Source: a virus
Length of the DNA stretch: 56,618 bases
Strand: one strand, 5' to 3'
Virus record (IMG/VR): IMGVR_UViG_3300023174_000199
Span: 1 to 56,618 of that record
Positions within the stretch are counted from its first letter, which is position 1; each line of letters begins with the position of its first letter. The position numbers and the translations under genes were made by a program. Under the pieces are notes generated by a model, which saw only the letters and a program-made list of their open reading frames with translations, was not told the origin of the DNA and made no database searches. Positions 18,804-20,817 of this stretch are shown here, in pieces.

Positions 18804-19214
18804 TTATTGATCTAGGTTAGGTTTAACAATTGGTCTTCTTACAACCGGTGTTGGTGCTGGGGTAGAGTAATCACTAGTATTTTCCACGACAGGCGCGAAT
18901 GACGCAGCTGGGGTTGCACTGTAACTTGTTGGTGTATAATTAGATGCAGTACCAGCTACCTTCTCTTGTGTTCTACCCCATGCGGCAATACCGAGTACAG
19001 CGCCCATGGCAAGGTGAAATAAACCAGCCCCTTGTAAGGTAAGCGGATTCCATTGCGTAATTGGTTGCTTAGTAAGTACCTGTAACAAACTCCACAGAAC
19101 AGGAAATATTGCCATATCTAGCATACAGACGATCATATACATCCAACCCATAGCTGGACGCCATTTTTTCTGCATCCAATCTTCTTCTTTTTTTACTACT
19201 ACTTCGTCTGCCAT
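18804..19214 (-). CDS. Holin-like membrane protein
   Basis: A 136-aa protein. Two hydrophobic segments are clear: MGWMYMIVCMLDMAIFPVLW (about residues 18-37) and LTLQGAGLFHLAMGAVLGIA (about 58-77). The RPAMGW...QWNPLTLQGAGLFH pattern is shared by phage membrane proteins I associate with the three-helix holin group. The tail is Ser/Thr/Pro-rich. It starts one base after the gp51 stop and is followed by the tape-measure-like gene one base later. A role in tail or baseplate membrane contact is equally possible given the neighbours. Confidence 0.65.
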   Translation of the reverse strand: MADEVVVKKEEDWMQKKWRPAMGWMYMIVCMLDMAIFPVLWSLLQVLTKQPITQWNPLTLQGAGLFHLAMGAVLGIAAWGRTQEKVAGTASNYTPTSYSATPAASFAPVVENTSDYSTPAPTPVVRRPIVKPNLDQ

Positions 19215-19215
19215 T

Positions 19216-19416
19216 TTACATGTTCCTTGCGTTTTGTTTAATTATCTGTAGCTTATCATTCTCGTGCCTAATATAATCTATCAATAATGAAACGTAAATC
19301 TCCCTCTCCCAAGGCAACATATTTTCAATCTCCGTTAAGCTGTACTTATGATGCTGCATTAACGAAAAGTTTAATGTATAAAAGTTAGCTAACGAATCTT
19401 GCGAGAGGGTTATACG
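19216..19416 (-). CDS. 51: gp51-like baseplate hub assembly factor, read by -1 frameshift from gp26
   Basis: A 66-codon frame in the -1 phase of gp26, ending at TAA 19216-19218. It contains LANFYTLNFSL, then MQHHKYSLTEIENMLPWERE and IYVSLLIDYIRHE. The NF-LMQHHKYS...MLPWEREIYV block is characteristic of small proteins encoded right after gp26 in T4-like phages. An ATG exists at 19359-19357 (47 aa), but the conserved YTLNFSL part lies upstream of it, and no ATG, GTG or TTG precedes it. It is reached from gp26 by the slippery site T TTT TTC (19422-19416). The gp26-gp51 fusion would parallel G/GT tail chaperones of lambda. Confidence 0.75.
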   Translation of the reverse strand, partial: RITLSQDSLANFYTLNFSLMQHHKYSLTEIENMLPWEREIYVSLLIDYIRHENDKLQIIKQNARNM

Positions 19417-20105
19417 AAAAAATTCTGTAAACCTTCTAGCCTTGATACGTTATGTTTCTTGCAGTCGGGGCAATCTGATTCTATTACCTGTACGATTTTA
19501 GGTGCGGTAACAAAAAACTGTTCTAACTTATCAAATTGAGATTTAGTTAGGGAGTACAGAAAGGTTTCCATTTCTTGTTTAGTCTGATCTCTTGCTTCCC
19601 AATACTCATCACCTCTGTAGATACCTTTAACGTTGCTAATAATCATATCAATCACTTTATCGTTATCGTCAGATGCAAATATACCTAGAACTTCATCAAT
19701 AGTTGGATACTGCATTTCAATACCCAGATCATCAGTAATTAAAATCTTATTTGTATGACCATCGCCTTTTTCAATTTTAAGGTCATCGATATTAAACTTA
19801 GCATCAATCTTGGTACCGCACTCACAATTAATAATGACATCAACCATCTCACCAATTGATTTAGCTCGAAGATTCATAAAAATGTATTCAACATCGATAT
19901 ACGGAATCTTGGCAACGTTTAGTTTTTCAAACGTACACACATTAACAAGTTCTCTAATAATTCTTGCTACTTCATCGTTCTCCGCATCTGCCATTGTTAA
20001 AAGAATTTTATGCTCTTTAACAAGGAAGGGTCTAAATTTAATCTTACTACCGGTAGAGGGTAATGTCAATTCAAAGGTTGGGGTTTCAAGTACTGGTAAA
20101 GCCAT
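19410..20105 (-). CDS. 26: Baseplate hub assembly protein gp26
   Basis: A 231-aa member of the T4 gp26 family (baseplate/tail assembly; length 208 in T4). The opening FELTLPSTGSKIKFRPFLVKEHKILLTMAD is typical: a target-binding strand followed by a helix. CECGTKID (about 97-104) and CPDCKKH near the C-terminus form two CxxC-type pairs that could bind zinc. Middle segments NLRAKSIGE and QYPTIDEVL also fit. AGGAG lies about 7 nt before the ATG at 20105. It ends in the frameshift signal leading into gp51. Confidence 0.88.
   Translation of the reverse strand: MALPVLETPTFELTLPSTGSKIKFRPFLVKEHKILLTMADAENDEVARIIRELVNVCTFEKLNVAKIPYIDVEYIFMNLRAKSIGEMVDVIINCECGTKIDAKFNIDDLKIEKGDGHTNKILITDDLGIEMQYPTIDEVLGIFASDDNDKVIDMIISNVKGIYRGDEYWEARDQTKQEMETFLYSLTKSQFDKLEQFFVTAPKIVQVIESDCPDCKKHNVSRLEGLQNFFV
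19416..19422 (-). other. Slippery heptamer T TTT TTC at the end of gp26
   Basis: Minus-strand codons AAT TTT TTC GTA TAA place a canonical X XXY YYZ heptamer two codons before the gp26 stop. AGAAGG (19437-19432) lies 9 nt upstream, at a spacing suited to an SD-like stimulator. Downstream, GTATAA and TTATAC flank GTTAGCTAAC and could form a stem. Confidence 0.75.
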
Positions 20106-20124: not shown

Positions 20125-20817
20125 TTAGCCACTTAACTGACCTACACCAAAGGCCATGTCATTATTTGTAGTACCTGGACTATACTCACCAGTATACGTT
20201 ACATTTCTCAAACCATTATCTTCTTCATAATCACGAGGCACTTCAGGGTTAAATAATGTACGCTTAATAGATACTTCATTAACCTTTCTTGGATCGCGCC
20301 ATAACCTGTATGCAAATAACATATTCAGTCTATGTGTCTGGTTTGAAGAAGAGTTATTAAGTTCCATCATATTCATGTTACGAGGAAATGCCTCTAGTAA
20401 TTCAATCTCATGTGTAACATTATCTTGTTCATCTATTTGTTTAATATTAATTGTAGTAGCATACTTTTCTTGATAGCTAACAGCAAATGTATTTTTGTTA
20501 ACTATCATGTGCATCCAGTCTTCAAAGAACTTTTTTACTCTCATTTCTCGGTCGACGTGAAACGTCATTGATAGACCTTCTCCCCCATACTCGGAAGACA
20601 TCGGTCTTTGGTATGATGGGCCAAATATCTTAAATGCTTTAGTGTTGATATTCAACATAGGGAAGTTAGTCTGTTCGCAATACAGGTTAACTAAATCCCC
20701 ATCCCCCCAATTCATACCTAATGGTACCTTAATATTAACCTCAAAGCGATTAGTTCTCGCAAGGCCAGCGCCGCTGAGAACTTCTGCTCTGAATCTATCT
20801 AGACTATATGTAGCCAT
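20125..20817 (-). CDS. 54: Tail-tube-fold baseplate protein (gp54-like)
   Basis: A 230-aa protein starting at ATG 20817, which shares one base with the upstream stop (TAATG); an in-frame ATG upstream would overlap the neighbour. The plan MATYSLDRFRAEVLSGAGLARTNRF, then CEQTNFPMLNI, MTFHVDREMRVKKFFEDWM and the C-terminal NMLFAYRLWRD is that of gp19/gp54-type tube proteins: a helix, N-terminal strands and the F-x-x-W helix. In T4, gp54 caps the baseplate and starts the tube. Assignment to gp54 rather than another tube-like paralogue is by operon context. Confidence 0.7.
   Translation of the reverse strand: MATYSLDRFRAEVLSGAGLARTNRFEVNIKVPLGMNWGDGDLVNLYCEQTNFPMLNINTKAFKIFGPSYQRPMSSEYGGEGLSMTFHVDREMRVKKFFEDWMHMIVNKNTFAVSYQEKYATTINIKQIDEQDNVTHEIELLEAFPRNMNMMELNNSSSNQTHRLNMLFAYRLWRDPRKVNEVSIKRTLFNPEVPRDYEEDNGLRNVTYTGEYSPGTTNNDMAFGVGQLSG

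Follow-up and report, generated by a model that had tools for sequence, protein, structure and literature searches.

A gp26/gp51 locus of an uncultured T4-like phage with a predicted −1 ribosomal frameshift that would yield the long form of a tail assembly chaperone

Genes 26 and 51 of phage T4 have long been named baseplate hub genes, with an uncertain role. In the window (the whole stretch of 56,618 nucleotides of virus DNA that was analysed), the minus strand at the 3' end of gp26 reads CAG AAT TTT TTC GTA TAA, and the −1 frame contains no stop from the heptamer T_TTT_TTC onwards for FF plus 66 codons, which encode a gp51-like tail (Table 1). The question raised by this arrangement is whether gp51 is a gene with a start of its own or an extension of gp26 that is reached by ribosomal slippage. 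The evidence makes it very probable that the locus encodes the paired tail assembly chaperones of a T4-like phage, the long form being produced by a predicted −1 frameshift. The original prediction, made from the letters alone, was correct on the heptamer at the end of gp26, on the 66 codons of gp51-like sequence in the −1 frame and on an AGAAGG element 9 nt upstream of the heptamer.

Table 1. Features of the gp26/gp51 locus and its neighbours in the window.
Feature	Coordinates	Strand	Basis or remark
Tail-tube-like gene immediately upstream of gp26	20125..20814	−	phrog_3629 E 6.1e-32, phrog_45 E 5.4e-31
gp26 (TAC-N, short form), 231 aa, C-terminus LQNFFV followed by the stop	19410..20105	−	PF12322 T4_baseplate E 3.8e-58; phrog_150 E 9.6e-60
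SD-like AGAAGG 9 nt before the heptamer, probably a stimulator of frameshifting	19432..19437	−	Enriched and at fixed spacing in relatives
Slippery heptamer T_TTT_TTC, predicted −1 frameshift site	19416..19422	−	Sequence; kept in 183/190 loci
gp26 stop codon TAA	19410..19412	−	Separated from the heptamer by one codon (GTA)
−1-frame tail, gp51 (TAC-C): FF + RITLSQDSLANFYTLNFSLMQHHKYSLTEIENMLPWEREIYVSLLIDYIRHENDKLQIIKQNARNM, stop 19218-19216	19216..19422	−	phrog_634 E 1.8e-26
First −1-frame ATG, in helix 2 of the gp51 tail, without SD; commonly mis-annotated as the gp51 start	19357..19359	−	
Predicted frameshift product gp26-gp51 (TAC-NC, long form), 296 aa	19216..20105	−	Alignment of the fusion profile to T4-type gp51 runs across the junction
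Holin-like small membrane protein, encoded between the gp51 and tape measure genes	18804..19214	−	phrog_3427 E 2.9e-8; PF11351 narrowly below cut-off
Putative tape measure protein, 853 aa	16241..18802	−	phrog_167 E 0.0029 (weak); position as in relatives

The identity of gp26 is secure at the level of the family, with a PF12322 profile score of 197 bits against a cut-off of 24.5, and the gp51 tail additionally matches positions 231-276 of phrog_150 (E 1.3e-8), a first hint that this family includes fused members. The gene order, a tube-like gene followed by gp26/gp51, the holin-like ORF and the putative tape measure gene (the tape measure match being weak), is the same as in HTVC008M, phiM12 and Cr30, where the tape measure gene is annotated and occupies the same place. 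The lineage itself is uncultured, and the proteins of isolates share no more than about 40% identity with its gp26.

The window's long open frames, 16,267 codons in all, contain three in-frame copies of T_TTT_TTC/T, and the one at the end of gp26 is the only one near a stop. The in-frame T_TTT_TTT sequences at about 8182 and 12001 on the plus strand, which lie in long open frames 266 and 100 codons from the stops, are probably incidental. U_UUU_UUC ranks with the more efficient slippery heptamers for E. coli ribosomes (PMC4066793). The original prediction proposed a comparison of the junction across relatives as its check, and this comparison supports it: among 190 related loci with a readable gp26 end, 183 have an in-frame T_TTT_TTC or T_TTT_TTT 0-8 codons before the gp26 stop and gp51 following in the −1 phase. 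Among the carriers are Kyanoviridae, Pelagibacter phages, phiM12, DLP6, Cr30, the Vibrio phages Va3 and K571, Aeromonas phage 65 and Desulfovibrio phage 7757. Of the seven loci that deviate, four belong to T4-type phages whose genes are separate (T4, Aeromonas phage 31, Acinetobacter phage DLP2 and AB1I1P), two belong to Ackermann-type phages, and in the last (L185) the frame is broken. The residue that precedes FF in the relatives is N, S, D, H or A, and its codon ends in T. From codon usage, the pattern NNT TTT TTY is expected in about 47% of the clusters (80% protein identity) and is observed in all 66, with a naive joint chance of 10^-22 that ignores shared ancestry. The junction is thus conserved strongly and very widely, and the slippery site is real. 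That the split frames are a sequencing or assembly error, or a recent decay mutation, is a reading with nothing in its favour except the broken frame itself; the split, the phase and the heptamer recur in independent isolates and in metagenomes down to about 25% protein identity, and the comparison with relatives refutes it, leaving it a practically negligible probability.

The second line of evidence concerns the start codon that a separate gp51 gene would need. Across 102 clusters (95% identity), the −1 frame upstream of the heptamer is open for just 0-17 codons (46 in one cluster), and an ATG, GTG or TTG is found there in a single cluster. No start codon comes before the conserved block in the window and its close relatives; the first one is inside it, usually at codon 21 counted from the start of the heptamer, and is preceded by CTTTTATACATTAAACTTTTCGTTA in the window. 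Overall, an SD match of at least 4 nt precedes the first −1-frame ATG in 9 of 100 cases, compared with 76 of 99 for the gp26 start. The structure of the gp51 tail, predicted from an alignment restricted to viral contigs (pLDDT 85), consists of helices 2-8, 11-24, 29-33 and 37-67, so that a tail starting from Met22 would be missing helix 1 and the greater part of helix 2, which all relatives conserve. The statement in the original prediction that this ATG is the only one has to be narrowed: it is the first in frame, and Met codons do occur further on, although no start precedes the conserved block, as had been claimed.

In public records gp51 usually stands as a gene of its own, which would begin at the internal ATG (19359) or through re-initiation past the gp26 stop. 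An ATG or GTG does follow the heptamer by 3-5 codons in some cyanophage relatives, so that a free gp51 may exist there, and in the Ackermann-like Vibrio phages D495 and K369, where gp26 ends with CTT TTC AAG TAATGG, the stop-start overlap in the −1 frame places the gp51 ATG upstream of the conserved block and would take that block in; these two phages likely represent a lineage without frameshifting. For the window, however, a separate gene is improbable. Its ATG, as noted, has no SD and would sacrifice the conserved helices, and the conservation of both the heptamer and the SD-like element would stay unexplained.

The strongest argument for joining comes from T4-type phages, in which the tail is invariably attached to a gp26 domain, which also counts against a separate gp51. 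Genes 26 (208 aa) and 51 (249 aa) of T4 are neighbours in opposite orientation. T4 gp51 consists of a PF12322 domain (residues 1-201, E 3.9e-52) and a gp51 tail (phrog_634, E 1.2e-23), and phrog_150 spans its residues 3-248 (E 2.6e-84). When 66 loci are frameshifted in silico and their products combined into a profile, this fusion profile aligns to gp51 of Aeromonas phage 31 unbroken through the junction (model positions 23-286), whereas T4 gp26 ends at profile position 235, which is the junction. No slippery heptamer is present at T4 gene 26 or at the fusion point of gene 51. Because T4 gp51 is a gp26-like domain with the tail in frame and T4 gp26 stops at the junction, the two paralogous genes of T4-type phages correspond to what the single locus of the window would produce through slippage. 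As far as sequence can tell, the single-frame gene 51 of T4-type phages would be the best proof that gp26 and gp51 are joined, and the analysis independently supports the view that T4 genes 26 and 51 encode a tail assembly chaperone in a short and a long form. In the window, which is a genome fragment, there is no second gp26-like frame, that is, no separate long-form gene of the T4 type.

The surroundings of the heptamer are non-random as well. An SD-like match of at least 4 nt is found upstream of the heptamer in 89 of the 102 clusters, compared with 23% of the phase-matched control windows in gp26, and the 3' end of these elements in the relatives nearly always lies 8-10 nt from the heptamer. 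Measured in 50-nt windows, the mean folding energy reaches its minimum at the heptamer (−8.1 kcal/mol, compared with about −5 to −6 in gp26), and z falls below −2 downstream of the heptamer in 42% of the clusters. Many cyanophage loci (L103-L182) have stable hairpins 4-40 nt after the heptamer, which are clade-specific and differ in sequence between clades. In the 50 nt downstream of the heptamer in the window, no stable hairpin is found (z +1.4); such an element is therefore left out of Table 1, being a feature of many cyanophages that is absent here, and the frameshift rate in the window may be low or may depend on the SD alone. These features also bear on the alternative that it is RNA polymerase, and not the ribosome, that slips on the T run and so joins the frames. 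The run is longer in some relatives (T7-T8; in HTVC008M, AGTTTTTTTTAA), where the polymerase could slip on it, but consists of only six T in the window, and the T_TTT_TTY phase, the fixed-spacing SD and the clade-specific 3' hairpins all point to −1 slippage of the ribosome, which makes a transcriptional origin of the fusion very improbable, even more so than a separate gp51.

The sequence of the locus and its conservation, together with the fusion that T4-type phages carry naturally, lead us to infer a ribosomal −1 frameshift that would work as follows. The majority of the ribosomes would halt at the gp26 stop and release the short protein, and a minority, with TTT TTC in the P and A sites, would slip by −1, aided by the upstream AGAAGG, and continue in the −1 frame to yield gp26-gp51. 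The lambda tape measure protein is bound by many copies of gpG and a single gpGT, whose T part recruits tube protein (PMC5009743). By analogy, binding to the tape measure protein would fall to the gp26 part and recruitment of a tube or hub subunit to the gp51 part, and both the short and the long forms would be absent from the finished virion. T4 gp51 is required for hub assembly and is missing from the particle (PMC3004832). A chaperone role as in lambda is the best inference for gp26/gp51 of the window, and the joining in the style of lambda G/GT that the original prediction put forward is upheld by the conserved heptamer, the phase, the missing start and the single-gene fusion of T4-type phages.

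The frameshifted 26/51 chaperone of T4-like phages has been known since 2022, and the window is a new uncultured example. Vladimirov, Gautam and Davidson are said to have found in that year that frameshifting is conserved across several T4-like groups, with T4 having separate genes 26 and 51. Earlier, a 2016 review described G-T frameshifting as general in long-tailed phages, T4 excepted (PMC5009743). The identification of the T4-like chaperone genes 26/51 is attributed to Vladimirov et al. (Virology 2022;566:9-15) by two later papers (PMC10885494, PMC12846349), of which the first, citing that work, describes some T4-like phages that, in place of frameshifting, have one gene for the short form and another for the long fusion, and the second, also citing it, describes poly-T slippery sequences in T4-like TAC-N genes. 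Going by these citing papers, the view in the original prediction that such frameshifting had not been established for T4-type gp26/gp51 is outdated. The protein families of that system, as they appear in the citing accounts, are the same as in the window, which differs in belonging to an uncultured lineage with the low gp26 identity to isolates given above.

Among other known systems, lambda gpG/gpGT and the related siphovirus and P2-type chaperones resemble the window in having a short form and a minor long form made by a −1 frameshift, which is predicted in the window. The likeness to lambda extends to the heptamer close to where the short gene ends and to the location between the tail tube and tape measure genes (lambda V-G/T-H), except that a holin-like gene intervenes before the tape measure in the window. 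The products of T4 genes 26 and 51 are homologous to the short and long products of the window, but T4 has two divergent paralogous genes, no slippery heptamer, and the long form in one open frame. Like the window, where this is predicted, the chaperone locus of Vandenendeviridae/Andersonviridae (phage Adele, PMC12846349) has a T run ahead of the tape measure gene at which −1 frameshifting is conserved; it differs in the phage families and in its GTTTTT motif. Sequence searches recover no relatives of gp26 or of the gp51 tail among solved structures, and fold searches of the PDB give no significant match, with the HK97 chaperone 2ob9 listed at E 3.1 and probability 0.13; the best fold matches in the viral structure library are gp26/gp51 relatives and unnamed phage proteins only.

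In five Ackermannviridae loci, gp26 ends with GAR ATT TTC AT[TC] TAA, with only a U_UUC tetramer, which is followed by a gp51-like tail in the −1 frame (FHLIFEIDLLSYFVMCDELK...MPWHLD) that is mostly unannotated; a single-tRNA frameshift or re-initiation is possible there. A tentative generalization, which we consider somewhat less than an even bet, is that the control of gp26/gp51 frameshifting is modular across myoviruses, with the SD being general and at fixed spacing, 3' hairpins gained and lost by clade, Ackermannviridae relying on U_UUC only, and the T4 clade having dropped slippage via paralogous genes. If so, the ratio of the short and long chaperones would be tunable by lineage. In any case, one −1 frameshift site is available here in many natural versions, some followed by a 3' hairpin and some not, as material for the study of bacterial ribosome slippage. 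The analysis also mends a widespread annotation error, given that gp51 in cyanophages and other T4-like phages usually appears as a separate truncated gene or is missed. In the records of Aeromonas phage 65.2, S-CAM1 and ACG-2014b, the gp51 tail is wholly unannotated.
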